From assembly GCF_000327285.1 (NCBI RefSeq), contig NZ_HE998569.1, positions 265,068 through 311,613 of the forward strand: 46,546 nt of DNA. The letters are read 5' to 3'. Numbering within the stretch: the first letter of the stretch is position 1; every line of letters starts with the position of its first letter. A model generated the notes under the pieces. That model did not search any database and had not been told where the DNA came from. It saw only the letters and a list, made by a program, of their open reading frames with translations. Shown here in pieces: positions 8,156 through 37,426 of the stretch. Both the position numbers and the translations under genes were made by a program. This DNA is from Holdemania massiliensis AP2. GTDB taxonomy: Bacteria; Bacillota_I; Bacilli_A; Erysipelotrichales; Erysipelotrichaceae.

Positions 8156-8191
8156 GCTGTGCCTCCTTTGGTGTAATACAAAAGCGGCTGA

Positions 8192-9070: not shown

Positions 9071-9100
9071 TTACTTCACTCCTTTCATTTCTCAGGTATG

Positions 9101-9132
9101 AAAAAAGCCGCAATTCATAAAAGAATTGTGGC
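9101..9132 (-). terminator. Minus-strand intrinsic terminator between the ICE small gene and the Rep-like gene
   Basis: On the minus strand, GCCACAATTC (9132-9123) pairs with GAATTGCGGC (9116-9107) across a 6-base loop and is followed by six T. It overlaps the last codon and stop of the small gene ending at 9115, so part of the parA-parB transcript probably ends here and the Rep-like gene is partly insulated. Confidence 0.7.
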
Positions 9133-9333: not shown

Positions 9334-9355
9334 TCCTTTCCTTTCGTTGTATCGG

Positions 9356-9628: not shown

Positions 9629-9639
9629 AGGCTCTCCCT

Positions 9640-10569: not shown

Positions 10570-11347
10570 GTTTCAATACCTCCTTCGTCAGATTTTTGTA
10601 GCCCTCAGCCACTTTGCCATTAGGATCATGGGCATAAATGCTTTTTCCTTCAGCACTGATTTCTTTAGCCCTGACAGAATGAGGAATTTCTGATGTAAAC
10701 ACCTTGATCTTACTGCCATAGGTTTCGCGCAGAAGAGCGGAGATTTCTTTGGCAAAATTGGTTCGGCTGTCTACCATCGTCAGCAGAATCCCATCAATTT
10801 GCAGCTTGGGATTGATTTGTCTGCGAACCTTATTGATAGTTTGCAAAAGCTGCTCCAAACCTTTAGCTGGAAGATACTCTGCCTGGACGGGGATTATAAC
10901 CCTATTAGCGGCAGCCAGTGCATTGACCGTAAGCATACCCAGGGAGGGCTGGCAATCAATAAGGATATGGGAGTATTGCCCCTTCAGCGTGTCCAGATAT
11001 TGTCGCAGAATGGTTTCTCGGCTCATAGCGTTTACCAGAGATACCTCCATACCAGATAGCTGGATGTCCGCAGGCATCAGGTCTACGCCCTCAGGGTGGT
11101 GCAGGATACCCTCGCCGGGACGAATTGGTTCATCCATCAAAATACGGCCCATAGCGTCTGACAGTGTAAAGGGCAGCTTATCAGGCTGAGGATTGCCCAA
11201 GCTGATGGTCAGGCTTCCCTGTGGGTCTCCGTCAATCAGAAGGACTTTCTTCCCGGACTGCGCCAGACCAATTCCAAGATTGGCACAAGTGGTTGTTTTG
11301 CCGACACCACCTTTTTGGTTGGCTATGGCAATAATCTGTGTATTCAT
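10526..11347 (-). CDS. parA: ParA family ATPase
   Basis: A 273-residue deviant-Walker ATPase. The KGGVGKTTTCANLG P-loop is at residues 11-24, the Walker A' region carries LLIDGDPQGSLT (about residues 36-47), and Walker B is HILIDCQPSLG (about residue 131). It drives segregation or stabilises the excised form of an ICE or plasmid together with ParB. It is the first gene of the minus-strand module and is preceded by a hairpin-plus-T-run at 11382-11431, which may attenuate its own leader. It lies about 350 bases from the tRNA-derived attachment site, the usual place for parA in this ICE class. Confidence 0.93.
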   Translation of the reverse strand: MNTQIIAIANQKGGVGKTTTCANLGIGLAQSGKKVLLIDGDPQGSLTISLGNPQPDKLPFTLSDAMGRILMDEPIRPGEGILHHPEGVDLMPADIQLSGMEVSLVNAMSRETILRQYLDTLKGQYSHILIDCQPSLGMLTVNALAAANRVIIPVQAEYLPAKGLEQLLQTINKVRRQINPKLQIDGILLTMVDSRTNFAKEISALLRETYGSKIKVFTSEIPHSVRAKEISAEGKSIYAHDPNGKVAEGYKNLTKEVLKLEKQREKNRAGLSR

Positions 11348-13163: not shown

Positions 13164-14594
13164 ATGAACTATCAAGAAAAACCAAGGTTTCCAAAGAATT
13201 TTATGTGGGGCGCAAGCTCAGCAGCCTGGCAAGTCGAAGGAGCGGTCAATGAAGACGGCAGAACTCCAGCCATCATCGACTTGAACAGTCAAACGAAAAA
13301 GCCTTATGCAGATAATTCCGTAGCCGCGGATCATTATCATCACTATCTGGAAGATGTCAGCTTGATGGCTGAGTGCGGCTTGTCAAGTTATCGATTTTCG
13401 ATTGCCTGGTCAAGAATTATTCCGGATGAAAGCCGCAGAGTGAATCCCAAAGGAATCGAATTCTATAATCATTTAATCAATGCCTTAATCGCCAATCACA
13501 TTACGCCCATCGTAACGCTTTATCATTATGATATGCCCTGCTGGGTCGATGAAAAAAAAGGCGGATGGTCAGACCGGCGGGTGATTGATGAGTTTGAATA
13601 CTACTGTCAGGTTTGTTTTGAGAATTTTGGGGATCGGGTTAAATATTGGCTCACCCTGAACGAACAGAATATGCAGATTGTTTACGGAGATTGGCTGGGT
13701 GTATCAAAAGGCTGTTCGGATTGGTTCAAAGAAAAATGGAAAATCAATCATATTATGAATCTTTGCCATGCAAAAGCAGTCATTGCCTGTCATCGCATGG
13801 TGCCCAACGGCAAAATCGGACCTGTCCCCGGCTATGTTCCGATTTATCCGGAAACTTGTAATCCGGCAGATCAGATTGCCGCGATGAACGCTGAAGAATT
13901 GACGCAAAAAGTATGGAACGATTTTTATGTTTTTCGGGAATACAACGGATTTATTCGACGTTATTGGAAAGAATACGGCATTGATCCCGATATCAGACCC
14001 CAAGATATGGAATTGATTCAGCAGGCTGAGATTGATTTTATCGCGCTGAACTGCTATCGCAGCAACGTAGCAAAGGCAGCAGACAAGGATTCAGAAATAA
14101 AAGAGCTGCAGCTGAACAAAAGCGGGAAAAAAGGTGAATTCGTTTATCCTGTCTATCCTGGGATTTATGCGCTTGCGCCTAACCCCTATGTCCAAACGAA
14201 TGATTGGGATTGGGAGATTGATCCGGTGGCGATGCGGTATATGTTGAGATATATCAACGATCATTATCATTTGCCGATGATGATCACCGAGAATGGCTAC
14301 GGCGCCCATGAAGAGATTGCGGAAGATGGCGGCGTTCATGATCAGCAGCGCATTCACTTTCTTAGGGATCAGATTTTTCAGGTGGGGCTGGCAATCGAAG
14401 ACGGCTGTGAAGTCATCGCCTATAATCCTTGGAGCTTTACCGATTTATTAAGTACAGGCAATGGAATGGCCAAGCGTTACGGACTGGTCTTTGTGAATAC
14501 CACGGATGCGGAAGTCCGCGATTTAAAACGAATTAAAAAAGACAGCTTCGACTGGTATTCCAAATTCATAAAATCAAATGGGAAAGCGTGGTGA
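13164..14594 (+). CDS. GH1 6-phospho-beta-glycosidase (first copy)
   Basis: A 476-residue GH1 enzyme with full TIM-barrel length. It opens with FPKNFMWGASSAAWQVEGA. The acid/base Glu is E167 in TLNEQN and the nucleophile is E376 in ITENGYG. The C-terminal KRYG preceded by a Ser seven residues before the Lys matches the phosphate-binding loop of 6-phospho-glycosidases (LacG numbering S428/K435/Y437, from memory). The LacG Trp after that Ser is a Thr here, which argues against strict 6-phospho-galactosidase use. It is cytoplasmic and cleaves PTS-imported beta-glycosides. The ATG at 13164 has AAGGAGG at 13150-13156. The ceramidase-like gene begins a few bases after its stop. Confidence 0.9.
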   Translation: MNYQEKPRFPKNFMWGASSAAWQVEGAVNEDGRTPAIIDLNSQTKKPYADNSVAADHYHHYLEDVSLMAECGLSSYRFSIAWSRIIPDESRRVNPKGIEFYNHLINALIANHITPIVTLYHYDMPCWVDEKKGGWSDRRVIDEFEYYCQVCFENFGDRVKYWLTLNEQNMQIVYGDWLGVSKGCSDWFKEKWKINHIMNLCHAKAVIACHRMVPNGKIGPVPGYVPIYPETCNPADQIAAMNAEELTQKVWNDFYVFREYNGFIRRYWKEYGIDPDIRPQDMELIQQAEIDFIALNCYRSNVAKAADKDSEIKELQLNKSGKKGEFVYPVYPGIYALAPNPYVQTNDWDWEIDPVAMRYMLRYINDHYHLPMMITENGYGAHEEIAEDGGVHDQQRIHFLRDQIFQVGLAIEDGCEVIAYNPWSFTDLLSTGNGMAKRYGLVFVNTTDAEVRDLKRIKKDSFDWYSKFIKSNGKAW

Positions 14595-14601
14595 AAAGAA
14601 G

Positions 14602-15870
14602 ATGAGAATTTGTCATACGCGGGATATCATCACTCCCTTTTTTCCAACATGGATGGAGGGGTATAGTGAAGACCGATTCATGATCAATCAAACAGAAGCT
14701 CAGAAACAACAGGCTGGAAAAGGAACCCGCATCGCTCAGGGAGCGCGCGATGATTTATTGTTGGAAACGCTGGTCATCGAATCGGGACAGATTGTCGTGT
14801 TCTTTACTTTAGATATGATTATTGCCGAGAAAGAATTTTGTGATTACTGTAAAAGTAAAATCACGAAGGCGACCGGCTTAGAAGCCAAGCAAATCTGTAT
14901 AAGCTGCATCCATACGCATAACAGTCCGCTCACCTCTCACGGAATGAATCATCATCAAAAGCCTGACAAAGAATATTGGAATCGGCTTGCTGATCAAATG
15001 ATCTGTGCTTTTCAATTGGCAAGAAATCATTTACAGCCGGCCCGCGTCTTTCTGGATGAGTATAAAATAAGAGGTTATTATAACAATCGAAATCGTCCGG
15101 GAGAAGAATATTTTGATCAGTGTCTTGATTTGACCTTCAAAACAGAATCAGGAATTCCCCTTGTTCGTTTATTAAATCTGGCTTGTCATCCGTCTTTGAT
15201 CGGCGTCCAGAACCGATATTTCACGAGTGATTTCTTTGGGGTAATGCGCCGCTACATTCAAGGAATCAATGGAACTCCGGTTATGATTATGAATGGGGAA
15301 GCCGGCGACGTCAGTCCCCGGCTCTTAAAAAAAGGGGTAGACTGGAATGAATGCGTAAGATATGGGGAAGGGATTGGCGCCCAGCTGATTTATCCCAATC
15401 ATCCGATTGAATTAAAAACAGAAGAAGTGAAAATCAAGAAAATAACGCATTCCATTCATTATCATCCTCAGGAAAGCGATTATCTCTGGGATAAAAAGAA
15501 AGAACTGACAGAAAAACTAAAAGGTACAGATCAGCAGACCAAGGAATATGAACTGATTTCCGGTTGTTTTCTGTATGATATCGAAGAGAAATTATCGCAT
15601 GATGAGCTTCGCTATGAAGGGGACTGCTTCATTTATGAATTTGGCGGATTTCGCATGGTCACCGTGCCTTGTGAGATAGACAGTGTATTGGGAAAGAAAT
15701 TACGGAATCACGATTCAACGCCCACGATTTTACAGGCTTATTCCAATGGATTTTTATATTATGCCGTCAATCAGGAAGAATACGGTAAAGTTTTTGAATC
15801 CTATGTGACTTATTTTCCAAGGGGAAGTGCTGATTCCATGGTGGAAAAGATGATTTCTCGTTATGAATGA
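14602..15870 (+). CDS. Cytoplasmic neutral/alkaline ceramidase-like hydrolase
   Basis: The 422-residue protein resembles the N-terminal catalytic domain of neutral/alkaline non-lysosomal ceramidases. It has the HTHNSP motif (around residue 110), a second conserved LACHPSLIG segment and NGEAGDVSPR, matching the zinc-binding region. It lacks the C-terminal domain of full ceramidases and has no signal peptide, so it acts in the cytoplasm and its substrate is probably not ceramide. The location after a GH1 gene suggests an amide or ester aglycone released from a glycoside; that is inferred. The start is uncertain: ATG 14602 gives MRICHTRD with only a weak GAAAAGAAG ribosome site, and the frame also opens at 14578 inside the GH1 gene. 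Confidence 0.75.
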   Translation: MRICHTRDIITPFFPTWMEGYSEDRFMINQTEAQKQQAGKGTRIAQGARDDLLLETLVIESGQIVVFFTLDMIIAEKEFCDYCKSKITKATGLEAKQICISCIHTHNSPLTSHGMNHHQKPDKEYWNRLADQMICAFQLARNHLQPARVFLDEYKIRGYYNNRNRPGEEYFDQCLDLTFKTESGIPLVRLLNLACHPSLIGVQNRYFTSDFFGVMRRYIQGINGTPVMIMNGEAGDVSPRLLKKGVDWNECVRYGEGIGAQLIYPNHPIELKTEEVKIKKITHSIHYHPQESDYLWDKKKELTEKLKGTDQQTKEYELISGCFLYDIEEKLSHDELRYEGDCFIYEFGGFRMVTVPCEIDSVLGKKLRNHDSTPTILQAYSNGFLYYAVNQEEYGKVFESYVTYFPRGSADSMVEKMISRYE

Positions 15871-16024: not shown

Positions 16025-17512
<1,488 letters not shown>

Positions 17513-19347: not shown

Positions 19348-20649
19348 ATGCAGAAAATAATGGGGTTCTTGGAAAAGCCGTTGGGAAAGTTCTCTGCTTT
19401 TATTCAAAACAATAATTACACATCAGCGATTGTCAGGGGGATCACGATTTCGATTCCGGTGACGATCGTCGGAGGCTTGGCAACGTTAATCACCGCAGCC
19501 CCGGATCCGGCAATTCTTGGTGAAGGGAATTTCTTCTATGGTGTGCTTGTGCTGTGGCAAAGCTTAGCGCAGGGCAGTTTGGGTACTTTTGCGGCGCTGG
19601 TCAACAACGTGACGATGAATATGCTTTCCGTCTACTGTCTGTTGGCGATCACGTACAATCTGGCGGAGTCCTATAAGCTGGATAAGATGACCTCGTGCAT
19701 GACGTCAGCCGTCTTGTTCTTTATGATCGGCTGCAGCTTTGAGGGTGGAATTTCGATGGGCTTTTTAGGCGGACGCGGCTTATTTTTCGCGATGTTCGTA
19801 GCGTGCTTATCGGTGTTCATCACGCAGTTCTTGTTTAAGAAAAATATCAAGATCACGCTGCCGGATTCTGTTCCGCCGAACGTTTCCGCTCCGTTTGAAC
19901 AGCTGATTCCGTTGGTCATCAACGTGATTGTCTTCTATCTGCTCAACGTTCTGTGCCTGAAAGCGACCGGTGTCATCATTCCGGACTTCATCCTGAACGT
20001 CTTCAAGCCGTTATTGAGCGCTTCCGATACATTACCGGCGATGTTGATCTATGTTTTCCTGCTCAATGCCCTGTGGGTGATCGGCGTCAACGGCGGCAAT
20101 ATCGTCAATTCCGTCATGAGCTCAGTGCTGTTAATGAATCTGGCAGAAAACGCGGCTGCGCATGCGGCGGGGGAGGAAATGGCGCATATCTTCTGTTATT
20201 CGCCTAATAATGCAATTATGAATACCGGCGGCAGCGGAGCTGCACTGGCGTTGGTTATTGCTGCGCTGATCGTCGCGAAATCGGATCATTTGAAAGCGAT
20301 CACGCGATTGGGCGGAGCGGGAACGATCTTCAATATCAGCGAACCGATTGTCTACGGCTATCCGATCGTTCTCAACAGCTATCTGTTCATTCCGTTCATC
20401 TTTGTTCCGATGATCAACACGACAATTTTCTACTTCTTAATGAGCACGAACATCATTGGCAAGATGTTCATCAATGTGCCGTGGGTTCTCCCGTCCCCAA
20501 TCCAGCTGGCATTAGCGACGTTAGACTGGAAGGCGGCGGCGGTCTGGATCTTATTGATCGCATTGGATGTAATTTTGTATCTGCCATTTGTTAAAATGTA
20601 CGACAAACAGCTGTTGAAGGAACAAGGGCAGCTGGAAGCGAAGAATTAA
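19348..20649 (+). CDS. PTS EIIC, lactose/cellobiose family
   Basis: This 433-residue polytopic membrane protein has about ten hydrophobic segments. The N-terminus is MGFLEKPLGKFSAFIQNN, and the conserved GGTGSG-like region appears as NTGGSGAALALVIA, followed by FNISEPIVYGYPIVLNS, the substrate-binding signature of the Lac-type IIC family. It imports and, with IIB, phosphorylates a beta-glycoside such as cellobiose or an aryl-glucoside. IIB, IIA and a GH1 gene follow in the same operon. The translational start is unusual because a hairpin separates the strong ribosome site from the ATG. RpiR proteins encoded divergently probably regulate it. Confidence 0.92.
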   Translation: MQKIMGFLEKPLGKFSAFIQNNNYTSAIVRGITISIPVTIVGGLATLITAAPDPAILGEGNFFYGVLVLWQSLAQGSLGTFAALVNNVTMNMLSVYCLLAITYNLAESYKLDKMTSCMTSAVLFFMIGCSFEGGISMGFLGGRGLFFAMFVACLSVFITQFLFKKNIKITLPDSVPPNVSAPFEQLIPLVINVIVFYLLNVLCLKATGVIIPDFILNVFKPLLSASDTLPAMLIYVFLLNALWVIGVNGGNIVNSVMSSVLLMNLAENAAAHAAGEEMAHIFCYSPNNAIMNTGGSGAALALVIAALIVAKSDHLKAITRLGGAGTIFNISEPIVYGYPIVLNSYLFIPFIFVPMINTTIFYFLMSTNIIGKMFINVPWVLPSPIQLALATLDWKAAAVWILLIALDVILYLPFVKMYDKQLLKEQGQLEAKN

Positions 20650-20687
20650 ATGATTGGCAGGGATGCCTGGAAATGGGAGGTATATTG

Positions 20688-20993
20688 ATGAAACATATAT
20701 TATTGGTCTGCGCCAGCGGAATGTCGACAAGCTTGATGGTCAAACGTATGCAGGCGGCCGCTGAGGAACAAGGCTTTGAATGCACGATTGAAGCGGTGGG
20801 CAACGCTTATGTAAGAGAAAAACGGGGAACAATTGATCTTCTGATGGTTGGTCCGCAGCTGCGGTTCAGCTACGACGCCTTGGTAAAGGATTTCCCAGAG
20901 ATTCCGGTTGTTCTGATTGATATGCTCGCTTATGGCAAAATCGACGGCAAAAAAGTGCTGGAAGAGGCGAAGAAAGCGATGGGCGTACAATGA
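20688..20993 (+). CDS. PTS EIIB, lactose/cellobiose family
   Basis: A 101-residue protein with the phospho-accepting cysteine C8 in LLVCASGMSTSLM, typical of the cellobiose/lactose IIB fold. The ATG at 20688 is preceded by GGGAGG; the frame opens 15 bases earlier. It passes phosphate from IIA to the imported sugar. Its stop overlaps the IIA start by 4 bases (ATGA), showing translational coupling. Confidence 0.93.
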   Translation: MKHILLVCASGMSTSLMVKRMQAAAEEQGFECTIEAVGNAYVREKRGTIDLLMVGPQLRFSYDALVKDFPEIPVVLIDMLAYGKIDGKKVLEEAKKAMGVQ

Positions 20994-21306: not shown

Positions 21307-22749
21307 ATGATGATTGAGAAAAAGTTTGGCGAACACTTTCAATGGGGCGGCGGTTTTGCGGCCAATCAGATGGAAGGCGCTTATCTTGAAGGCGGAAAAG
21401 GTCTATGTCTTGCGGATATCAATGAATTTCTGAGCGATGTAGCAATAGATAAGAAAAATAATGAAGAAATAACGACGGCGTATATTGCAAACGCAGTCAA
21501 AGAGAATTCCAGGAATTTTCCCAAACGCCGGGGAATCGACTTTTATCACCGCTATGCTGAAGATCTGAAACTTCTGGGAAAAGACGGATTAGGATTGAAT
21601 GCTTTCCGGACTTCGATCAACTGGGCGCGGATTTTTCCCAACGGAGATGATGAAAAGCCGAATGAAGAAGGCTTAAGGTTCTATGACCGATTAATTGATG
21701 AGATTCTGGCCAACGGGATGGAACCGATGATCACGATGTCGCACTATGAGATGCCGCTGAACCTGACGCTGAAATACACGGGCTGGTATTCCAAGGAAAC
21801 GATTGGGTTTTTTGAGAAATACGGAAAAGTATTATTGGATCGTTATCATGATAAGGTTAAAAAATGGATCCTAGTTAATCAAATCAATCTGATCACGCAT
21901 GAATCGTTTAATCATCTCGGCATTGCCGAAGATAAGGTGGAAAATCTGGCGGAAGCTAAATATCAGGGGGTCATAAATGAAATGATCGCCTGCGCGGGGA
22001 TTACAGAGTATTCGCATAACCACTATCCGGATGTTGAAATCGGAATGATGCTTTGCGGAGGCCCGGCCTATCCGGCGACCTGCAAGCCGGAAGATGTGCT
22101 TGCAGCTGTGAAGCATAATCAGATGGAATATTTCTACGGCGATGTTCTGCTGCGCGGGAAAATTCCGGGCTATGCTTATCGTTTTTTTGAGGATCATGGA
22201 TTCAACATTGAGGTTTCCAAGGAAGAAGCTGAAAAATTGAAGAACCACTGTGACTTTTTCAGTTTTTCGTACTATTATACGCGGTTGTGCGATCAGCAGC
22301 ATTATGAAAATGGAAACGAGGGTTTTCGGAATCCGGAGCTGCCGGCAAATCCCTGGGGCTGGTCGATCGATCCCCTGGGGCTGCGGACATTTCTGAATCT
22401 GTTTTATGACCGCTATCAATGTCCGATTTATATCACTGAAAATGGCATTGGGTATGCGGACGAGCTGACGGAAGATGGTCAGATTCATGACCCTTACCGC
22501 CCTCAATTTTATCGCCAGCATATTTTGCAGATGAAGGAAGCCCTTGCGGATGGTGTGGATCTGCGCGGATATTATTTCTGGGCGCCGTTGGATATCGTCA
22601 GCTGCTCCTCCAGTGAAATGAGCAAGCGGTATGGTTTTATTTATACTGACATCGACGATGAAGGAAACGGAAGCGGAAAACGGATTCTGAAGGACTCCTA
22701 TGCCTGGGCTAAAAAAGTCATCGCTTCTCAAGGCGAAGATTTAGAATAA
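21307..22749 (+). CDS. GH1 glycosidase with Gln at the acid/base position (thioglucosidase-like)
   Basis: A 480-residue GH1 protein with a complete barrel. Instead of the usual T-x-NE-x-N, residues 188-194 read ILVNQIN: the acid/base Glu is Gln (Q192, codon CAA at 21880-21882). The nucleophile is intact (E378 in ITENGIG) and the C-terminal SSSEMSKRYGF phosphate loop is kept. Plant myrosinases (GH1 thioglucosidases) also have Gln here, because their aglycones leave without protonation. The two other GH1 enzymes nearby keep Glu. Together with the PTS genes just before it and the sulfatase just after, this suggests phospho-thioglucosides such as glucosinolates, or other activated glycosides. Loss of activity or a non-catalytic role is the alternative. 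Confidence 0.88.
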   Translation: MMIEKKFGEHFQWGGGFAANQMEGAYLEGGKGLCLADINEFLSDVAIDKKNNEEITTAYIANAVKENSRNFPKRRGIDFYHRYAEDLKLLGKDGLGLNAFRTSINWARIFPNGDDEKPNEEGLRFYDRLIDEILANGMEPMITMSHYEMPLNLTLKYTGWYSKETIGFFEKYGKVLLDRYHDKVKKWILVNQINLITHESFNHLGIAEDKVENLAEAKYQGVINEMIACAGITEYSHNHYPDVEIGMMLCGGPAYPATCKPEDVLAAVKHNQMEYFYGDVLLRGKIPGYAYRFFEDHGFNIEVSKEEAEKLKNHCDFFSFSYYYTRLCDQQHYENGNEGFRNPELPANPWGWSIDPLGLRTFLNLFYDRYQCPIYITENGIGYADELTEDGQIHDPYRPQFYRQHILQMKEALADGVDLRGYYFWAPLDIVSCSSSEMSKRYGFIYTDIDDEGNGSGKRILKDSYAWAKKVIASQGEDLE

Positions 22750-22779
22750 TTCTTATGATCTTGAATGGGAAAGGAATTT

Positions 22780-24255
22780 ATGGAAAAACGGAAAAATATA
22801 TTGTTTTTTATTGCGGATCAGCTGCGGGCGGACAGCTTGGGATGCATGGGAAATACCGAAGCGGCGACGCCGAATTATGACGCCTTGTCGGAAGAAGGAA
22901 TTCTGTTTGAGAATGCATTCTGTCAGTCGCCGATCTGCGTTCCAAGCCGATGCAGCTTCAATACCGGCTGGTATCCGCATACAAACGGACATCGGACGAT
23001 TCATTATTTCTTGGAAAAAGAAGATCCGAGTATGATGAAGTCGTTAAAAAAGAATGGATATCATGTTTATTTAATGGGAAAGTCGCATTATTTTGATCGC
23101 CAGGATGAGGCGGAAATGGCGGCAACCTGTGATCTGGAATACATTGGCTGTGAGATGAGCACGAATGCGATCCATCGAATCGGGCAGTCGGTATCGAAAG
23201 AAGAAATTTCAGCTAATCCGTATTACTATTCTTTCTATTTTGGAGAAATGTCAAAGGAAGCGGCAGCCAAAACTCAGGATGATCTGGTCATCGAGCGAAC
23301 TTTGGCGATGATTCAAAATCACGAATTAAAAGAACCGTTCTGCCTTTATGTTTCGTTAAACCTTCCGCATCCGCCTTATGAGGTGGAAGAACCTTGGTTT
23401 TCCATGATTGACCGGACATCGATCAAGATTCAGACGCAGCCGATCGAACATCTGAAGGACAAGCCGAGCATTCTTTATCGGATTCGTGAAAATCAGAATC
23501 TAACAAAGTTAACGGAGAAAGATTTTCAGGAGATCAAGGCGACGTATTATGGGATGATTGCGAAATTGGATCATCAGCTTGGCCGTGTTCTCGGGGCTTT
23601 GAAAGAACAGGGCTACTATGAGGATACGCACATTCTTGCCTTTGCAGATCATGGTGATTTTACCGGCGATTATGGCTTGGTGGAAAAAACACAAAATACG
23701 TTTGAAGATTGTCTTGTTCATATTCCATGCATTATTCGTCCTGCTCAGGGCACACCGTTTCAGCCGCGAACGAGTTCATCGCTGGTCGAACTGAACGATT
23801 TGCCGCAGACCGTCGCAGAACTGCTTCACTATGAATTGGATTACACTCAGTTTGGAAAGTCGTTAACCGCTTTGTTTGAAAATGAGATGGAACTGCACGA
23901 GTATGTTTTGAGTGAAGGCGGCCGTATTCAGGGGGAGAAGCAGGCGATGGAAGGCTATACCGGAAAAGCGTCGATCTATTGGCCGCGTCTGGAGGCTCAG
24001 ACGCGCATGCCTGAGCATTCTAAGGCGTTTATGGTTCGCTCTGATCAGTATAAGTATGTTTACCGTTTGTTTGAAAAGGATGAATTTTACGATCTGACAG
24101 CGGATCCTTGGGAAGAAAAGAATGTCGTTGATGATCAGCGATATCGCTTGGAAATTGCGAAGATGAAAGACTGGCTGCTGAAAAAATTAATCGAAACCAC
24201 GGATAACGTGCCGATGAAAACCATGCTTCCAGGAAGAACCTATGGAGAGGAATAG
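22780..24255 (+). CDS. Cytoplasmic S1-family sulfatase
   Basis: This 491-residue arylsulfatase-fold protein has the metal-binding N-terminus FFIADQLRADS, the formylglycine motif C53-V-P-S-R (followed by CSFNTGWYPH), HPPYEVEEPW and the second metal site ADHGDFTGDYG. There is no signal peptide, so it is cytoplasmic and would act on imported substrate, fitting its place 30 bases after the PTS/GH1 genes. The cysteine needs an activating enzyme (anSME or FGE) encoded elsewhere. The ATG at 22780 is preferred over 22765 because GGAAAGGA stands just upstream. Phosphonate monoester hydrolases share this fold and are an alternative. Confidence 0.88.
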   Translation: MEKRKNILFFIADQLRADSLGCMGNTEAATPNYDALSEEGILFENAFCQSPICVPSRCSFNTGWYPHTNGHRTIHYFLEKEDPSMMKSLKKNGYHVYLMGKSHYFDRQDEAEMAATCDLEYIGCEMSTNAIHRIGQSVSKEEISANPYYYSFYFGEMSKEAAAKTQDDLVIERTLAMIQNHELKEPFCLYVSLNLPHPPYEVEEPWFSMIDRTSIKIQTQPIEHLKDKPSILYRIRENQNLTKLTEKDFQEIKATYYGMIAKLDHQLGRVLGALKEQGYYEDTHILAFADHGDFTGDYGLVEKTQNTFEDCLVHIPCIIRPAQGTPFQPRTSSSLVELNDLPQTVAELLHYELDYTQFGKSLTALFENEMELHEYVLSEGGRIQGEKQAMEGYTGKASIYWPRLEAQTRMPEHSKAFMVRSDQYKYVYRLFEKDEFYDLTADPWEEKNVVDDQRYRLEIAKMKDWLLKKLIETTDNVPMKTMLPGRTYGEE

Positions 24256-26648: not shown

Positions 26649-28040
26649 ATGGGAAAATATGCTGAATTTTCTCAAAAAGTTTTAGAAAACGTCGGGGGAT
26701 TGGACAATATTACCTTTGTTGCCCATTGTGCCACAAGACTACGGATTAGCTATGCCGACGGCAGTAAAATCAACGAAGCAGCGATTAAGGCGCTCCCGGA
26801 ATGTGCGGGAATTGTAAAAAAAGCCAATCAGCTTCAGATTATTATTGGTCCGCAGGTACCGGATGCTTACTACGATTTTCTGGAAGTTTCCGGTTGGAAA
26901 GAAGGCATGAATGAAAATGCCGTCAATGTTCCAAAAGAGAAAAAGTCAATTCTGGATTTGATTGCCGATTTCTTCCCGCCGATCTTCATGCCGATTATGC
27001 CGGCACTGGTCGTTGGCGGTATGGTTTTAGCCATTCGTACATTATGCGTCAACTATTTCGGTCTGGATGTTTCCAGCGGAACAGCCCAATTGTTAACCTG
27101 TTTCTTCAATGCCGGATTTGAATTCCTGCCGATCTACATTGGTTACTCGTATGCGCAGAAACTGAAGCTGCAGCCAATTCTCGGCATGTTCTTGGGCGGG
27201 GTTCTGGTCTGCTCACGTTATCAAAGCGGAGTGGTTACTGATTTTTTAGGACTGCCGATTGAACAGGTCAGCTATTCCTCAACGATTATTCCGGTCATCT
27301 TAGGTACGACATTGATTTACTTCCTGGATAAATACCTGAAGAAAATCATTCCCAACGCCGTTATTTACTTCGTAAAACCAGTAGTAACGATGCTGATTGT
27401 TGTCCCGGTTACATTCTTATGGCTTGGCCCGTTAGGCACATGGCTGAGTACTTACATCGGTTATTTTGTCACCTTCTTAATGGACACGCTGGGTGTCTTT
27501 GCCCTGCCGATCCTGTGTGCACTGTGTCCATACTTCGTCATGTTTGGTGTGGATAAAGCACTTTCCCCACTGGGAATTGAACTGCTTGCTACTTTGGGTT
27601 ACAACAACATCACAGCTCCGCAGAACTTCATTTCCAACATTGGCGTCGGTGCGGTAGCTTTGGCCATCGCCTATTCCGCCGTTGTCCGCAAAGACAAAGT
27701 TAAGCGCGGCATGATCGTGTCCACAGCCATCACAGCGCTGTGCGGCGTTACTGAACCTGCATTCTACGGGTCACTGATCTCACTGAAAGAAGCTTTAATC
27801 GGACATGCGATCGGGACGGTGATCGGCGGCTTTGTCGGTGCCCTGTTTGGCTTAAGAACCTACATTTCCGCTTCCTGCCCAGGCTTCTTAACTTTCCTGT
27901 CATTTATCAATCCGGAAACCGGAAGTCTGCAGATGGTCTGGTATGCAGCGATTACGGCAGCGGTTACGGTTGTAGCCTGCTTTATGGCAACTTCGATTTT
28001 AATCAAGCGTTCCGAAAGCAAGAAAGCGATTGCCGGATAA
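26649..28040 (+). CDS. PTS EIIBC, glucose/beta-glucoside superfamily, without IIA
   Basis: The 463-residue protein has an N-terminal IIB domain with phospho-cysteine C27 in AHCATRLRI, then an EIIC domain with about ten membrane segments (about residues 105-460, including FFPPIFMPIMPALVVGGM and CGVTEPAFYG). It has no C-terminal IIA domain, as in MurP and SacP types, and must use a separate Crr-type IIA; one is encoded at 37517-37972 under a matching RAT leader. ATG 26649 has AAAGGAGG at 26633-26640. The substrate is unknown. Its position directly before six M81 hydrolase genes suggests a sugar carrying an amide or peptide moiety, for example an N-acyl amino sugar or muropeptide-like compound; that is speculative. 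Confidence 0.9.
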   Translation: MGKYAEFSQKVLENVGGLDNITFVAHCATRLRISYADGSKINEAAIKALPECAGIVKKANQLQIIIGPQVPDAYYDFLEVSGWKEGMNENAVNVPKEKKSILDLIADFFPPIFMPIMPALVVGGMVLAIRTLCVNYFGLDVSSGTAQLLTCFFNAGFEFLPIYIGYSYAQKLKLQPILGMFLGGVLVCSRYQSGVVTDFLGLPIEQVSYSSTIIPVILGTTLIYFLDKYLKKIIPNAVIYFVKPVVTMLIVVPVTFLWLGPLGTWLSTYIGYFVTFLMDTLGVFALPILCALCPYFVMFGVDKALSPLGIELLATLGYNNITAPQNFISNIGVGAVALAIAYSAVVRKDKVKRGMIVSTAITALCGVTEPAFYGSLISLKEALIGHAIGTVIGGFVGALFGLRTYISASCPGFLTFLSFINPETGSLQMVWYAAITAAVTVVACFMATSILIKRSESKKAIAG

Positions 28041-28059
28041 ACCAGAAAGAAGGAAAACG

Positions 28060-29502
28060 ATGAAAGTATTAGTCGGACTGTTCAACGCGGAATGCAATGC
28101 GAATATTCCCCTCACCAGTGATTTAAGTGACTTTGATCTGGCGTTTAAAGATCAGGTCATCGAGAAGATGTATGTCCGCGAGATCTACGATCAGGCTGGG
28201 GTGGAGATCATTCCGGCGGTCTATGCCAATGCCGGGGCAACCGGGATTGTGGAAAAATCAGCATTTGAATCAATTGAAAACAGTTTTCTGGCTGTCATTC
28301 AAAAACATCTGCATGAATTGGACGGGATTTATCTGCATCTGCATGGCGCCAGCTATGTGGAAGAGATCGGCAGCGGTGATCATCATCTGTTAAGCATGAT
28401 TCGCCGGCTTGTCGGCCCGTATCTGCCGATTGCGGTTTCTTGTGATCCGCATGGCAATCTGACCCAAGAGTATGCCGAGGCGATTCAGATTCTGCGCAGT
28501 TTTCGGGAATCACCGCATACGGACAACGTTGATACTTATCGAAAAGTTTCGCAGATGCTTTGCGATTTCATCCGTCAACGTCAGACGATTCATTCCGTTT
28601 ACCGCAAACTGCCGTTGATTTTAGGCGGCGAACAGTCGGTATCGGCAGATGAGCCGGTGCGGTCGATCAATCAGTTTATGGATCAGATGGAAGAAGATCC
28701 GCGGATTTTGAGTGCTTCCTGGCATGTCGGCTATCTGCGGCATGATTGTCCGGAAGCGGGCTGCGGCATCGTTGTTGTCCCGAAAACTGAGGCGGATCAG
28801 GCATATGCGGAAACGAAGGCGGATGAGCTGGCCGATTACGTTTGGCAGCGCCGGCGGGAGTTTCATTATACGGGACTCACGGCTCAGCCAGAGGAAGCGC
28901 TGCAGATGGCATTGGATTTCGCAGGCCGTCCGGTGGTTATCACGGACTCCGGAGATAACATGACTTCCGGCGCCGCCGGTTGGAATACCTTTATTTTAAG
29001 ACAATGCCTGGCAATTCCGAATTTAAAGAAAAGCATTCTGTTTGCACCGATTGTCGATCCGAAGGCTTACGCCCATCTGAAAGATCACAAAGTCGGACAG
29101 ACCGAAACAATCGATTTGGGAATGCTGCGTGATGAACTGTCTGAAAGCGTCAGCTTGAAAGTCACAATTCGTCAGTTCAGTCAGATCTGTAAGTTTACCA
29201 ATGGGATTTATGAGCGGGAAATGACTGAATGCGTCCTGGTGCATCTGGAAGGCACAACCATCGATGTGCTGATTGCCAATCTTTCCTACGCCGTGATCAA
29301 CCGTTACCAGCTGGAATATCTGGGTCTGGATTGGCGTCAATATGACATGACCGTCTTGAAGCAAGGCTATATCTTCCCGGATTTCAAAGCCGACGCGCAG
29401 TTCTATGTCATGTCGCTGACCGGCGGGGCAACGCCGCAGGATACAAAGAATATTCCGTTTAAACTGATTCAGCGTCCGATGTATCCGATTGATGAAATTT
29501 AA
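28060..29502 (+). CDS. M81 family metallohydrolase, paralog 1
   Basis: A 480-residue MlrC-like enzyme without a signal peptide. The N-terminal domain holds AECNAN (Glu near residue 9), YLHLHGASYVEEIGSGDHH, and the metal motif D129-P-H131 with H153 in SPHTD. The spacing (D-x-H, then His 22 residues on) equals that of MlrC D167/H169/H191, from memory. The ILGGEQSVSADEPVRSIN block and RHDCPEAGCG follow, and the C-terminal domain has TDSGDNMTSGAAGWNTF. M81 members cleave peptide or amide bonds of small substrates. It follows EIIBC by 19 bases, under the licT leader. ATG 28060 is preferred for its AGAAGGAAA site. It differs from the other paralogs in reading NMTSGAA where most have NTTSGAT. Confidence 0.88.
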   Translation: MKVLVGLFNAECNANIPLTSDLSDFDLAFKDQVIEKMYVREIYDQAGVEIIPAVYANAGATGIVEKSAFESIENSFLAVIQKHLHELDGIYLHLHGASYVEEIGSGDHHLLSMIRRLVGPYLPIAVSCDPHGNLTQEYAEAIQILRSFRESPHTDNVDTYRKVSQMLCDFIRQRQTIHSVYRKLPLILGGEQSVSADEPVRSINQFMDQMEEDPRILSASWHVGYLRHDCPEAGCGIVVVPKTEADQAYAETKADELADYVWQRRREFHYTGLTAQPEEALQMALDFAGRPVVITDSGDNMTSGAAGWNTFILRQCLAIPNLKKSILFAPIVDPKAYAHLKDHKVGQTETIDLGMLRDELSESVSLKVTIRQFSQICKFTNGIYEREMTECVLVHLEGTTIDVLIANLSYAVINRYQLEYLGLDWRQYDMTVLKQGYIFPDFKADAQFYVMSLTGGATPQDTKNIPFKLIQRPMYPIDEI

Positions 29503-29513
29503 CTGAAAGAAAA

Positions 29514-29580
29514 GGCGGCGGTCCTCCCTTTTCCGCTGCCCTTCCTTTCCATCATTCGGATCCGTCACTGCTTCGGATCT
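29514..29580 (+). terminator. Two weak hairpins after M81 paralog 1
   Basis: GGCGGCGG (29514-29521) pairs with CCGCTGCC (29533-29540), and GATCCG (29559-29564) pairs with CGGATC (29574-29579), followed by TTTAAAAAA. Neither has a full T-run; they may form a leaky terminator or processing site. Confidence 0.4.
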
Positions 29581-29587
29581 TTAAAAA

Positions 29588-29624
29588 AGGTTCTGTTGGC
29601 TTCCATGCGAACCGATGAGAACCT
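29588..29624 (+). promoter_or_regulatory. Leader hairpin before M81 paralog 2
   Basis: AGGTTCT (29588-29594) pairs exactly with AGAACCT (29618-29624), with a partial inner stem (TTGG/AACC region). It sits 35 bases upstream of the ATG. No T-run follows, and I see no promoter nearby. It may regulate or stabilise the M81-2 message; the function is unknown. Confidence 0.35.
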
Positions 29625-29659
29625 GTTCACAATTTTGAGCGAATGAAGGAGGGCTTTGT

Positions 29660-31105
29660 ATGAAGATTTTAGTCGGTGAATTTGTTTCTGAAACTAACGA
29701 AAATATACCGCAGCGCTGCCGTATCAATAACTATGTGATCGCCTTTGACGATCAGTGCATTCAAAATCTGAACATCAGTGAAGTGTATGAATCGGAAAAT
29801 GCGGAAATGATTCCGACCATTTATGCCAACGGTGCCAGCGGTGGATTGATTACGCCGGAAACGTTTGCCTATATCGAAACTTCGCTGCTGAATGAAGTAA
29901 AAAAACATCTGAATGAAATCGATGGGATCTTCCTGATGCTTCATGGCGCCAGTAAGGTTGAGGGCCTGGGCAGCGGGGACCATCATATTATTCAGGAGGT
30001 GCGCAAGCTGGTTGGCCCGTATTTGCCGATTGCTGTCGCCTGTGACCCGCATGGCAATCTGACTCAGGAATATGTTGAGTCACTGCAGATTATCCGCAGT
30101 TATCGCCAGTCACCGCATACCGATGCCAATGAAACACTGCGCATCGTTTCAAAAATGTTGATCGATCTGGTCCGCTCACGTCAGAATATACACGCTGTCT
30201 ACCGCAAGCTGCCATTAATCTTAGGTGGGGAACAATCCGTGTCCACAGATGAACCGGTGCTTTCCATCAATCGATATATGGACGAATTGGAACAGGATCC
30301 GCGGATCTTAAGCGCTTCTTGGCATGTTGGTTATCTGCGGCATGATTGTCCGGAAGCCGGATGCGGGATTGTCGTCGTACCGGCTTCTGAAGCGGATCAG
30401 GACTATGCAGAAACGATGGCTGATCAGCTGGCAGATTATGTCTGGCAGCGGCGTCATGAGTTCCACTATACAGGCTTGACGGCAGAACCGGAAGAAGCGC
30501 TGGAAATGGCGCTGAACTATGACGGCAAACCAGTTGTCATTACGGATTCCGGCGATAATACCACATCGGGGGCTACGGGCTGGAATACGTTTGTGCTGCG
30601 TCAGGTACTGGCTGAAAAGAACTTGAAAAAGCAGGTGCTGTTCGCAACAATTTGTGATCCGAAAACATTTAATCAGCTTCAGAAGTTGTCAGTCGGAGAT
30701 TCTGCCGCAATTCGTTTAGGAATGGATTATGACGAATTATCGAAAGCGGTTGACCTGGAAGTGGTCGTTAAAGCGAAAGGCCCGATCACCGGGTTTATGA
30801 TGCACAACATTCCGGGAACGGTGTATGGCGAAACGATCAGCGTGACGGTCAAAAACAGCCCGATCACGATCATGATCGCTACGACCAGCTATGCGATCTG
30901 TGAAATTCATCAGTTTGCCGATGCCGGTCTGAACTTTGATGATTATGACGTTATCATCGTTAAACAGGGCTATATTTTCCCAGAACTGAAGGCCGCGGCG
31001 AAATTTTATGTGATGTCGCTGACCGACGGAGCGACGCTGCAGGATACACGCCGATTGACCTATAAGCAGATCATGCGGCCGATGTATCCGATCGACGAGA
31101 TCTGA
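29660..31105 (+). CDS. M81 family metallohydrolase, paralog 2
   Basis: A protein of 481 residues with FVSETNENIP at the N-terminus, D129-P-H131 and H153 in SPHTD, GGEQSVSTDEP, and TDSGDNTTSGATGWNTF in the C-terminal domain, ending RPMYPIDEI like its paralogs. The start has AAGGAGGG upstream. It differs in the middle of the C-terminal domain (about residues 355-400, KGPITGFMMHNIPGTVYGE) and in reading FLMLHGASKVEGL where paralogs 1, 4 and 5 have YLHLHGAS, so its specificity may differ. It appears to form its own transcription unit, bounded by hairpins upstream and a terminator at 31145-31195. Confidence 0.88.
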   Translation: MKILVGEFVSETNENIPQRCRINNYVIAFDDQCIQNLNISEVYESENAEMIPTIYANGASGGLITPETFAYIETSLLNEVKKHLNEIDGIFLMLHGASKVEGLGSGDHHIIQEVRKLVGPYLPIAVACDPHGNLTQEYVESLQIIRSYRQSPHTDANETLRIVSKMLIDLVRSRQNIHAVYRKLPLILGGEQSVSTDEPVLSINRYMDELEQDPRILSASWHVGYLRHDCPEAGCGIVVVPASEADQDYAETMADQLADYVWQRRHEFHYTGLTAEPEEALEMALNYDGKPVVITDSGDNTTSGATGWNTFVLRQVLAEKNLKKQVLFATICDPKTFNQLQKLSVGDSAAIRLGMDYDELSKAVDLEVVVKAKGPITGFMMHNIPGTVYGETISVTVKNSPITIMIATTSYAICEIHQFADAGLNFDDYDVIIVKQGYIFPELKAAAKFYVMSLTDGATLQDTRRLTYKQIMRPMYPIDEI

Positions 31106-31144
31106 CGGTTTTCCACAACTCCCATCATTGAAGCTTATGAAGAA

Positions 31145-31195
31145 AACAGCCTGGTCTGACGGACATCGTTCATAAGACCCGGCTGTTGTTTTATT
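31145..31195 (+). terminator. Terminator after M81 paralog 2
   Basis: AACAGCCTGGTCT (31145-31157) pairs with AGACCCGGCTGTT (31175-31187) with one mismatch, followed by GTTTTATTC. A 17-base loop makes it moderately strong. Confidence 0.7.
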
Positions 31196-31223
31196 CAGAT
31201 AGAAAGAATAGGTGAGGTGTAGT

Positions 31224-32675
31224 ATGAAAGTCTTGATCGGACATTTTACGACAGAAGCCAATGCTCATATCCCGATGAAAAACAATCTGTCCCATTATGA
31301 ACTGGCCTTCGGCGAGGAATTAATCGAACGCATGAAGGTAAGGGAAGTCTTTGAGCAAGCTGGGATTGAAATCATCCCTTCGATTTATGCCGGCGGCGGA
31401 CCTTCCGGGGTCATCGAAAAAGAAACTTTTCTGACGATTGAGAATTCGCTGCTTTCAACAATTAAAAAACATAAACACGAAATTGACGGAATTTACTTAT
31501 GGCTGCATGGTGCGAGCTGGGTGGAGGACATCGGCAGCGGTGATTTTCATATCATTGCGAAAATCCGGGAACTGGTTGGGCCTTATCTGCCAATTGCTGT
31601 GTCCTGCGATCCGCATGGAAACCTGACGGAAGACTATGTTCATTCGCTGCAGATTCTGCGCAGCTTCCGCCAGTCGCCGCACACTGATATGGTTGAAACA
31701 TACCGCAAAGTCGCAGCTATGTTATGCGACCTTCTGAAGAATCGGCAGCACATCCATCCCGCTTATCGCAAACTGCCGTTAATTCTGGGTGGGGAACAGT
31801 CGGTCTCGGCGGATGAACCGGTGCGCTCGATCAATGCCTATATGGATCAGCTGGAACAAGATCCGCGCATTCGCAGTGTGTCCTGGCATGTCGGCTATCT
31901 GCGCCATGACTGCCCGGAAGCGGGCTGCGGAGTAGTCGTAGTTCCGCAGACTGAGGCCGATCAGGCCTACGCGGAAGCTATTTGTGGTAAACTGGCGGAT
32001 TACGTCTGGCAGCGCCGTCATGAATTTCATTATACCGGTACGACGGCTGATCCGGAAGCCGCGCTGCAGATGGCACTGAACTTTGAAGGCAAACCATTTG
32101 TCTTGACGGATTCCGGTGACAACACCACTTCCGGGGCAACCGGTTGGAATACCTTTGTCCTCAGACAATTTTTAGCTCTCCCAGAATTGAATAAAAGCGT
32201 GCTGTTTGCAGGGATCTGTGATCCTAAGACCTGTGCTGAGCTGCGGATGAAACAGATCGGCGACGCGGTTGAGGCGACATTGGGCGTGGGTGAGGATGAG
32301 CTGTCCAAACCGGTGAGGCTTGAAGGCGTGATTCAGGCCAAGGGGGATGTGATTCGCATTGCGGCATTGGGACGGGATGAGTATACGGTCATGGGACACT
32401 GTGTAAGCCTCACGTTAACCGATCGGCCGATGACGGTGATCATTACTGATCATCGGCAGGCCTATTGTCATACGCTGCAGTTTGAGCATGCTGGAATCAC
32501 AGACTGGACACAGTTTGCGATTACGGTTGTGAAGCAGGGCTATATTTTTCCGGAACTGAAGGCCGCCGCTCAGGGTTATGTCATGTCGCTGACCGAGGGA
32601 GCAACGCCGCAGGATACGAAGAATATTCCATTTAAACAGATCCAGCGTCCGATGTATCCGATTGACGAGATTTAA
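31224..32675 (+). CDS. M81 family metallohydrolase, paralog 3
   Basis: A protein of 483 residues, FTTEANAHIP at the N-terminus, YLWLHGASWVEDIGSGDFH, metal motif D129-P-H131 and H153, GGEQSVSADEP and TDSGDNTTSGATGWNTF. The best start is ATG 31224 with AGGTGAGG upstream; the frame opens with a GTG at 31212. Paralog 4 follows after only 10 bases, so both are in one operon, and the pair likely continues into the AEC transporter. The variable part is around residues 365-395 (KGDVIRIAALGRDEYTV). No signal peptide, so it is cytoplasmic. Confidence 0.88.
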   Translation: MKVLIGHFTTEANAHIPMKNNLSHYELAFGEELIERMKVREVFEQAGIEIIPSIYAGGGPSGVIEKETFLTIENSLLSTIKKHKHEIDGIYLWLHGASWVEDIGSGDFHIIAKIRELVGPYLPIAVSCDPHGNLTEDYVHSLQILRSFRQSPHTDMVETYRKVAAMLCDLLKNRQHIHPAYRKLPLILGGEQSVSADEPVRSINAYMDQLEQDPRIRSVSWHVGYLRHDCPEAGCGVVVVPQTEADQAYAEAICGKLADYVWQRRHEFHYTGTTADPEAALQMALNFEGKPFVLTDSGDNTTSGATGWNTFVLRQFLALPELNKSVLFAGICDPKTCAELRMKQIGDAVEATLGVGEDELSKPVRLEGVIQAKGDVIRIAALGRDEYTVMGHCVSLTLTDRPMTVIITDHRQAYCHTLQFEHAGITDWTQFAITVVKQGYIFPELKAAAQGYVMSLTEGATPQDTKNIPFKQIQRPMYPIDEI

Positions 32676-32685
32676 GGGGGTAGTT

Positions 32686-34149
32686 ATGAAAATATTAATT
32701 GGTTTTTTTGCAACAGAAGTCAATGAGCATATTCCCTGCATGACAGACTTGTCAAGTTATGATCTGGTTTTTGGCGAAAGCATTGCCGAACGCATGCAGT
32801 TGGGAGACGTTTTAAAACAGGAAGGAGCGGAGATGATTCCTTCGGTCTATGCGAAATCATCGCCCAACGGAATCATTGAAACGGCGGCTTTTGAAACGAT
32901 TGAAAACAGTCTGTTGAGGGCTGTGCGCAGCCACCGCCATGAGATTGACGGCATCTATCTGCATCTGCATGGCGCCAGTTATGTGGAAGGCATTGGCAGT
33001 GGTGATTTCCACATTCTGAAGGAAGTCCGCAAGCTGGTTGGACCCTATCTTCCGATCGCGGTTTCGTGCGATCCGCATGGGAATCTGAACGAGGACTATG
33101 TTCGATCGATGCAGATTCTGCGCAGTTATCGTGAATCACCGCATACCGACATGATTGCTACCTGGCAGAAAACACTGCGGATGCTTTGTGAACTGGTGCG
33201 TCAGCGGCAAGGAATCTGCCCAGCTTATCGCAAGCTGCCGTTGATTTTAGGCGGTGAACAGTCGGTATCGGCAGATGAACCGGTGCGCTCGATCAATGCT
33301 TATATGAATCAGCTGGAACAAGATCCGCGGATCATGAGCGCGTCCTGGCACGTCGGCTATCTGCGCCATGATTGTCCGGAAGCTGGCTGTGGGGTGGTGG
33401 TTGTTCCGCAGACCGAAGCGGATCAGGCGTATGCCGATCAGATGTGCGCCCAGCTGGCCGATTTTGTCTGGCAGCGGCGCCGGGAATTTCATTATACCGG
33501 CATCACCGCTGAGCCTGAAGCCGCCTTGAAGATGGCACTGGATTTTGCCGGCAAGCCGTTTGTGCTTACGGATTCCGGGGATAACACAACCTCCGGGGCA
33601 ACCGGCTGGAATACGTTCGTTCTGCGGCAGTTTCTGGCCGTGGACAAGTTAGACAAAAGAGTATTGTTCGCTGCGATTGTGGATCCGGTTTGCGTCCAGT
33701 CGCTGCTTCAGCAGAAACCAGGAGCACAGATCCCAATTCAATTGGGCATGAACGTTGACGCTCTTTCTCAAGCGGTAGAATTAAACGTCGAACTGATCGC
33801 GAAAGGGGAAGTGGTACGGACACTGTCCTTTGCCCCGGGGGAGGATGGCCTAGCTTCCAAAGCTGGCGACTGCGTGCTGGTGCGGCTGACGGAGCATCCG
33901 ATTGATATCATCATTGCCAATCATAAACTCAGTTATTTTAAAACGGTTCAGTATGAACACGCCGGGGTTGAAGATTGGACACAGTACGATATCGTCGTCG
34001 TGAAGCAGGGCTATATTTTCCCAGAACTCAAGGCTGCGGCCCAAGGGTACGTGATGTCGCTGACCGACGGGGCAACGCCGCAGGATACTAAGCACATTCC
34101 GTTTAAGTTGGTACGGCGGCCGATGTTTCCGCTCGATGATATGGATTAA
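32686..34149 (+). CDS. M81 family metallohydrolase, paralog 4
   Basis: A protein of 487 residues, FATEVNEHIP at the N-terminus, metal motif D129-P-H131 and H153, GGEQSVSADEP, RHDCPEAGCG and TDSGDNTTSGATGWNTF. The ATG at 32686 is right behind GGGGG at 32676-32680, 10 bases after the paralog 3 stop, implying coupled translation. Over the GGEQSVSADEPVRSIN block its DNA is nearly identical to paralog 1 (compare 28616-28672 with 33241-33297), suggesting recent duplication or gene conversion. It ends RPMFPLDDMD, slightly different from the RPMYPIDEI end of paralogs 1-3 and 5. Confidence 0.88.
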   Translation: MKILIGFFATEVNEHIPCMTDLSSYDLVFGESIAERMQLGDVLKQEGAEMIPSVYAKSSPNGIIETAAFETIENSLLRAVRSHRHEIDGIYLHLHGASYVEGIGSGDFHILKEVRKLVGPYLPIAVSCDPHGNLNEDYVRSMQILRSYRESPHTDMIATWQKTLRMLCELVRQRQGICPAYRKLPLILGGEQSVSADEPVRSINAYMNQLEQDPRIMSASWHVGYLRHDCPEAGCGVVVVPQTEADQAYADQMCAQLADFVWQRRREFHYTGITAEPEAALKMALDFAGKPFVLTDSGDNTTSGATGWNTFVLRQFLAVDKLDKRVLFAAIVDPVCVQSLLQQKPGAQIPIQLGMNVDALSQAVELNVELIAKGEVVRTLSFAPGEDGLASKAGDCVLVRLTEHPIDIIIANHKLSYFKTVQYEHAGVEDWTQYDIVVVKQGYIFPELKAAAQGYVMSLTDGATPQDTKHIPFKLVRRPMFPLDDMD

Positions 34150-34224
34150 AAACCTTTCACTGCCCAAGACTCAAACCCAACAGAGAGAGTACGATGGGGC
34201 AGGGTCAGGAAATCAGGGAGGATT

Positions 34225-35151: not shown

Positions 35152-35193
35152 TGGAATGTAAGAATCAAACAAAAGAAAGAAGGAAAGTCCATG

Positions 35194-37414: not shown

Positions 37415-37426
37415 GAGTTCAAGGTT

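Follow-up and report, generated by a model that had tools for sequence, protein, structure and literature searches.

A family 1 glycoside hydrolase (GH1) is recognized by a glutamate acting as acid/base, and the locus studied here raises the question of what such a protein does when this signature residue is a glutamine. The window, i.e., the whole stretch of DNA that was analysed (46,546 nucleotides of Holdemania massiliensis AP2), contains one such protein, P0001, and two GH1 proteins with the usual glutamate. In the following, Gln rows and Glu rows are aligned GH1 sequences with the respective residue at position 192 of P0001.

21307..22749, + strand: GH1 6-phospho-beta-glucosidase-like protein of the Gln branch (P0001), 480 residues, PF00232 at 354.9 bits
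21880..21882, + strand: codon CAA of Gln192, acid/base position, aligned with Glu180 of LpPbg1 (available part of PMC3605045)
22438..22440, + strand: Glu378, nucleophile, Glu in 57 of the 57 Gln rows covering the position
22624..22635, + strand: KRYG phosphate-binding loop, residues 440-443, with Lys440 and Tyr442 (role from the available part of PMC3605045)
13164-14594: Glu-type GH1, E167 at the aligned position
16064..17512, + strand: Glu-type GH1 (E189), 41% identical to P0001

The motif around Gln192 is WILVNQIN, as against WLTFNEIN (E189) and WLTLNEQN (E167) in the window's two Glu-type GH1 proteins. The contrast pointed out by the first-pass annotation thus holds (codon CAA, aligned with E167 and E189), as does its remark that the nucleophile and the KRYG loop are kept. 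Both are present in P0001: E378 is intact within an ITENG motif (TENG at 377), and the loop is invariant across Gln and Glu rows in the column comparison described below. The 6-phosphate site is complete, with S432, which we take to belong to it, K440, and Y442, and C433 is the small residue that replaces the galacto-specific Trp. The roles of the Lys, the Tyr, and the small residue are those given in the available part of PMC3605045. The catalytic Glu/Glu pair of GH1 is therefore incomplete, with the nucleophile Glu present and Gln as acid/base, which makes P0001 a variant of the GH1 6-phospho-beta-glucosidases and not a standard member. Its best NCBIfam model is 6-phospho-beta-glucosidase, at 463.5 bits (below the cut-off of 623), and database records call the genes of this branch simply glycoside hydrolase family 1 protein. 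The predicted fold (AlphaFold2, pLDDT 91.0) is closest, among solved structures, to 6wgd (Z 54.2, rmsd 1.8, 449 aligned); myrosinase is absent among the 50 structure-comparison matches listed, such a list being no test of likeness. P0001 is 40-46% identical over most of the chain to the GH1 6-phospho-beta-glucosidases 6wgd (B. licheniformis) and 4ipl (S. pneumoniae BglA-2), and to L. plantarum LpPbg1 (3qom) and E. coli BglA (2xhy). It shares with all four the fold, the nucleophile, the phosphate loop, and the link to a phosphotransferase system (PTS), but the Gln branch differs from them in having Gln for the acid/base Glu and other residues in the aglycone pocket.

The glutamine is a fixed trait of one branch of GH1. 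In the scan of named genomes, 25 of 26 loci have Gln, at 62-82% identity to P0001, and the sole Glu locus is the most distant (Loigolactobacillus rennini, 47% identity). Together with loci from relatives, from the window's own genome, and from plasmid records, these give 117 distinct alignable GH1 rows, deduplicated on the last 430 residues (at least one near-copy pair is left, L063_1459 and L066_2960), among which 58 have Gln, 59 have Glu, and no third residue occurs. In a tree of these rows built without column 192, a single branch separates the 58 Gln from the 59 Glu (SH-aLRT 100), i.e., one change, and inside the Gln branch none of the 58 rows shows a reversion to Glu; the tree results from a quick search, has some Glu rows on long branches, and was made from a set outside of which myrosinase stands. 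Gln is also found in four rows that the tree does not include: L134, L135, and a pair from L140/L141. The search of the source genome listed 17 GH1 places, all of them read, of which two have Gln (P0001 and L068, at G000:C1:1181763-1183193) and the others Glu. Among 395 class genomes drawn evenly, matches with E no higher than 1e-137 come from 11, and all 17 places listed have Gln; a phylum-wide draw mostly overlapped this one and added a single genome (G558), with two Gln rows. Because Glu rows are also present at about 49% identity (L075), the Gln branch is not definable by identity alone.

The branch includes Holdemania, Enterococcus, Hungatella, Lacrimispora, Breznakia, Niallia, Collinsella, and Treponema, as well as Listeria monocytogenes (L117) and a plasmid of Enterobacter ludwigii (L118). 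It thereby extends over Bacillota, Actinomycetota (Collinsella and other Coriobacteriaceae), a Treponema metagenome-assembled genome, and the Enterobacter plasmid. Holdemania sp. Marseille-P2844 (NZ_LT635450.1) has an ortholog 82% identical to P0001. Relative to its nearest ortholog P0001 shows dN 0.12 and dS 1.65, and relative to L036 and L040 dN/dS is undefined (saturated). The genus-level group of E. gallinarum was covered by six genomes: a Gln row occurs in three (L094, L134, L135), and the best matches in the remaining three (L136-L138) are Glu-type; Enterococcus casseliflavus is a glucosinolate user according to the available part of PMC6767122. The first-pass annotation had considered a mutation of this strain, to be checked by aligning orthologs; since Gln is common to orthologs, a strain mutation is ruled out, as are sequencing error and chance. 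Hence, the observation at position 192 is real and marks a subfamily of GH1. Literature listings for glutamine as a GH1 residue, for thioglycosidases and myrosinase, and for the gene of Listeria, with subscription papers largely outside their scope, yielded no description of this branch.

Upstream of P0001 lie the genes of a PTS and two regulators.

19348..20649, + strand: PTS EIIC, lactose/cellobiose family, TIGR00410 at 272.9 bits (above the cut-off of 236)
20673..20993, + strand: PTS EIIB, lactose/cellobiose type, PF02302
20990..21292, + strand: PTS EIIA, lactose/cellobiose type, PF02255
18362..19174, - strand: RpiR-type regulator carrying a SIS domain, transcribed divergently from the PTS genes, PF01418, with a 57-59% homolog in L052
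17568..18365, - strand: second RpiR-type regulator, PF01418

The genes of EIIC, EIIB, EIIA, and the GH1 protein are codirectional, with a gap of 14 bases between the last two. The position of the Gln GH1 directly after EIIC-EIIB-EIIA in one gene run makes a PTS-coupled phospho-glucosidase likely. Among 25 flanked Gln loci, PTS genes occur within 3.5 kb in 22 (the three without, L034, L043, and L049, have one short flank), a PRD-type regulator in 17, and a second GH1 within 3.5 kb in four (the Glu GH1 of L031 is just beyond this distance). The usual operon has a divergent PRD regulator, followed by EIIB, EIIC, EIIA, and the Gln GH1, and one of this type is also found in the source genome, around L068 (L076). 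That the Gln GH1 is mostly the sole GH1 of its PTS operon, for example in Lacrimispora celerecrescens and in Enterococcus, argues for catalysis, and the protein probably functions as an enzyme. The window EIIC shares no more than about 24-31% identity with the EIICs of PRD operons, as against 95% with its counterpart in Holdemania sp. and 76% with that of the Lachnospiraceae genome L052. The L052 genes are arranged as EIIC, GH1-Gln, sulfatase, EIIB, EIIA, RpiR. In Enterococcus sp. PF1-24 (L045 7444-8253), the Gln GH1 is followed by a lipoprotein-like histidine phosphatase, named by eye, and the same cluster is present in L047.

Based on sequence, phylogeny, and gene context, with the chemistry inferred throughout, our best explanation, to which we give an even chance, is that P0001 belongs to a Gln-bearing subfamily of GH1 and works as a PTS-coupled retaining 6-phospho-beta-glucosidase, in which the leaving group departs unaided or is protonated from elsewhere. 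Gene order and family suggest that the PTS would import a beta-glucoside and phosphorylate its O6. From the conserved residues, Ser432, Lys440, and Tyr442 would hold the phosphate and Glu378 would attack the anomeric carbon. Because residue 192 has no carboxylate, the leaving group would then depart without protonation by the enzyme, or with a proton from elsewhere. The likeliest substrates would be those whose leaving group is stable or self-assisted, i.e., thio-, acyl-, N-, or acidic aryl glucosides. The attack of water in the second step would need another base, a part that Glu199, Glu274, or another acid close by could play, and the glucoside of the window, or a variant of it, would probably also be sulfated, the neighboring sulfatase removing the sulfate. 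Leaving-group chemistry alone fails to explain the fixation of Gln, as Glu-type enzymes, too, can act on glucosides whose leaving group is good. An artificial Glu-to-Gln form of a 6-phospho-galactosidase relative, Gan1D-E170Q, is termed a catalytic mutant in the titles of its structure entries; E170 is presumably the acid/base residue of Gan1D. A more specific proposal, which we hold as a tentative one and rather less than evenly probable, is that a GH1 subfamily, independently of plant myrosinase, has dropped or moved its acid/base for PTS-imported thio-, acyl-, or N-glucosides (here sulfated, with a dedicated sulfatase), and that no such bacterial phospho-glycosidase has been described.

The changes that accompany Gln concentrate in part around the aglycone, where two residues deserve mention.

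21901..21903, + strand: Glu199, seven residues after Gln192 in the loop after strand 4, at the place of myrosinase Arg194, Glu in 47 of 58 Gln rows
22126..22128, + strand: Glu274, aligned with the aglycone-binding Arg267 of LpPbg1 (role from the available part of PMC3605045)

When Gln rows were compared with 50 of the 59 Glu rows, those at 36% identity or more, the columns separating them most included many near the aglycone site, namely 189, 190, 195, 199, 200, 202, 203, 204, 251, 273, 274, 423, and 433. The changes correlated with Gln are the loss of T189 and F190 and the gain of L195, E199, N202, H203, E274, Y423, and C433. LpPbg1 uses Glu180 as acid/base and Lys438 and Tyr440 as phosphate ligands, and its Arg267 and Asn183 contact the +1 sugar (PMC3605045, available part); in the alignment these five residues correspond, in this order, to Gln192, Lys440, Tyr442, Glu274, and Leu195 of P0001.

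Such changes could mean that the acid/base has moved, Glu199, Asp251, or Glu274 (in the loops after strands 4 and 5) replacing Glu192 in an enzyme that would cleave ordinary O-linked 6-phospho-disaccharides or glucosides. We regard this as doubtful, about half as probable as our best explanation. An acid is found at 199 or 200 in 52 of 58 Gln rows and 3 of 59 Glu rows, and Asp or Glu at 274 in 41 of 58 and 4 of 59, respectively; if one takes positions 199, 200, 251, and 274 together, at least one is acidic in all 58 Gln rows versus 7 of 59 Glu rows. Asp251 occurs in 20 of the 58 Gln rows, including several without Glu199 (L006, L064, L068, L073, and L074), and Lys or Arg is found at 251 in 24 of 59 Glu rows and in none of the 58 Gln rows. 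A role for 274 would be consistent with its alignment with the residue of LpPbg1 that contacts the +1 sugar. However, the four positions were picked post hoc and the rows are related by descent, so that the acid contrast counts as one evolutionary event and not 58. Furthermore, no position is acidic in every Gln row, and the acids may merely bind the aglycone. If the substrate makes an acid/base needless, they would bind one that is polar and non-anionic. Since no single acid is invariant, and since the plain family already cleaves ordinary O-glucosides, an acid/base made needless by the substrate would rank somewhat above a moved one. Were a conserved pocket acid to take over the lost function, the substrates could be ordinary O-glycosides, which would count against our best explanation.

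The gene that follows P0001 codes for a putative sulfatase.

22765..24255, + strand: FGly-type sulfatase, CVPSR at 58-62, PF00884 at 137.7 bits

Inspection by eye of this protein found no obvious signal peptide, and its closest solved relatives, iota-carrageenan sulfatase and choline-sulfatase, are too distant for assigning a substrate. The source genome contains a sulfatase-maturase-like protein (333.9 bits, cut-off 349.45). The sulfatase adjoins the Gln GH1 in the window and in L052 (69% identity), and a sulfatase gene or remnant is found in two of the 25 flanked Gln loci, being absent from the other 23. In Holdemania sp. Marseille-P2844 (L148 8978-9259, the L031 locus), a 93-residue sulfatase remnant, 87-89% identical, follows the Gln GH1, and hence the sulfatase can be lost with the Gln GH1 retained. 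Homologs of the sulfatase (41-45% identity) adjoin a lactose-type EIIC in six of the seven other class genomes having one; L145 has it on the opposite strand, and L147 lacks the adjacency. The order is EIIC, sulfatase, GH1-Glu, EIIB, EIIA in L143 and EIIC, sulfatase, GH1-Glu in L144, and the window protein nearest to these two GH1s is the Glu-type one at 16064..17512 (47-48%). The occurrence of sulfatase and EIIC with a Glu-type GH1 elsewhere indicates that the sulfatase tracks the PTS rather than Gln. Its presence apparently signals a PTS module that handles a sulfated glucoside and that has recruited the Gln GH1. The module of RpiR, EIIC, and sulfatase in L142, L143, and L144 resembles a system for PTS use of sulfated glucosides, and in L142 a radical-SAM maturase-like protein, recognized by eye, lies beside the regulator. 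The sulfatase was also considered as proof of a glucosinolate locus, and rejected as such given its absence from 23 of the 25 Gln loci and its place beside a Glu-type GH1 in L143 and L144.

The first-pass annotation had likened the residue change to that of plant myrosinase and proposed a PTS-coupled 6-phospho-thioglucosidase as a route for glucosinolate breakdown. The likeness, one of a single residue, is correct: classical (QE-type) myrosinase (1myr and 7z1i) has Gln at the acid/base place, and Gln187 of 1myr matches Gln192. By ungapped counting from a shared IG, Arg194 of 1myr falls at Glu199 and Arg259 at 252 (G252). These two arginines are, we assume, the binders of the aglycone sulfate. 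Lys or Arg occurs at the place of the first in none of the 58 Gln rows and at that of the second in one. The nucleophile of classical myrosinase is Glu, as in the Gln branch (PMC6691170, available part), which differs from it by the 6-phosphate site, the PTS operon, and the lack of Arg at the two places. The Gln change sits inside a set of bacterial 6-phospho-type GH1 proteins, in a tree without myrosinase, and this grouping, together with the missing anion-binding residues, indicates that P0001 is not a member of the myrosinase family. Moreover, the plant enzymes PEN2 and PYK10 cleave glucosinolates with Glu, their class having added basic residues in the pocket (PMC6691170, in its available part), so that Gln is neither needed for nor diagnostic of myrosinase activity.

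It is thus improbable that P0001, with the Gln seen in classical myrosinase, is a 6-phospho-thioglucosidase acting on intact glucosinolates. This reading agrees with the shared residue change, with the PTS coupling, and with the known breakdown of sinigrin by a PTS and a GH1 6-phospho-beta-glucosidase, backed by expression in E. coli and Lactococcus (available part of PMC8660893). Companilactobacillus farciminis PttS/PbgS and E. coli BglA/AscB also pair a PTS with a GH1 phospho-glucosidase (PMC8660893 and PMC6767122, available parts). The C. farciminis transporter is a fused IIBCA, unlike the separate EIIC, EIIB, and EIIA of the window, and such a pairing, present here, is true of many systems for other sugars. 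The adjacent sulfatase and the use of desulfoglucosinolates by gut strains (PMC6767122, available part) fit as well, but the sulfatase distribution and the Glu-type plant enzymes speak against this reading, as do the acids at or near the arginine places. Because these places are almost never basic, intact glucosinolates look unlikely and would be among the less likely substrates. What stands of the earlier proposal is a likely PTS-coupled phospho-glucosidase; the glucosinolate thioglucosidase is unsupported, given the pocket acids and the lack of Arg, and a glucosinolate route is not borne out in a branch whose range of hosts and habitats is far wider than Brassica eaters. A lead is offered by non-anionic thioglycosides, e.g., a desulfoglucosinolate: after the sulfatase, desulfoglucosinolate-6-phosphate would be free of sulfate and would be better suited than a glucosinolate to an acid-rich pocket.

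It is still less probable that P0001 is not a hydrolase, being instead a phosphorylase or transglycosidase on 6-phospho-glucosides in which Gln admits an anionic or other acceptor. The loss of the carboxylate would remove charge repulsion toward phosphate, and a GH3 phosphorylase with a non-carboxylate acid/base exists. However, no beta-phosphoglucomutase was recognised among the examined neighbors, the HAD neighbor being of Cof type, and no basic residues were gained for a second phosphate. Least probable of all is an inactive relative, a pseudoenzyme that would bind 6-phospho-glucosides and perhaps regulate the operon: the acid/base residue is gone, but nucleophile and phosphate site are invariant across rows, and the protein is usually the sole GH1 of its own PTS operon, with PRD or RpiR regulators already present.

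Gln throughout a branch suggests a bacterial enzyme of GH1 fold that works without the acid/base, which would add a second case to that of myrosinase. Should its substrates be thio-, acyl-, or N-glucosides, this would point to an unrecognised route for plant glucosides in bacteria of the gut, insect gut, soil, and food. The Listeria monocytogenes relative (L117 5986-9408) lies in a cluster of EIIB, EIIC, EIIA, GH1-Gln, and PRD regulator, ahead of a Vga-family gene; these are presumably lmo0914-lmo0918. Expression of lmo0917 is raised in soil extract (PMC3179493) and that of lmo0915 in the infected mouse spleen (PMC2679221), the available parts of both texts assigning the Gln GH1 no function and making no mention of the missing acid/base.

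The window contains other features of interest. Between the two Glu-type GH1 genes, a 430-residue protein (14578-15870) matches only a neutral-ceramidase-like model, and weakly (24.4 bits against a cut-off of 32.1). A 1491-residue protein with TPR repeats, SUFU, DUF7832, and DUF4253, followed by a UPF0167 protein, occupies 596-5951, a set of domains that looks to us like a polyimmunity arrangement. On the minus strand, 7187-11347 codes for a BRO/KilAC antirepressor, DUF6017, ParB, and ParA, and resembles part of an integrated mobile element. Finally, 28030-39478 contains an unusual run of six M81/MlrC-type metallopeptidase-like paralogs (28030, 29660, 31212, 32662, 35191, and 38012); a Mem_trans-type transporter is interspersed, and the run is immediately preceded by a BglG-type antiterminator and a PTS EIIBC.
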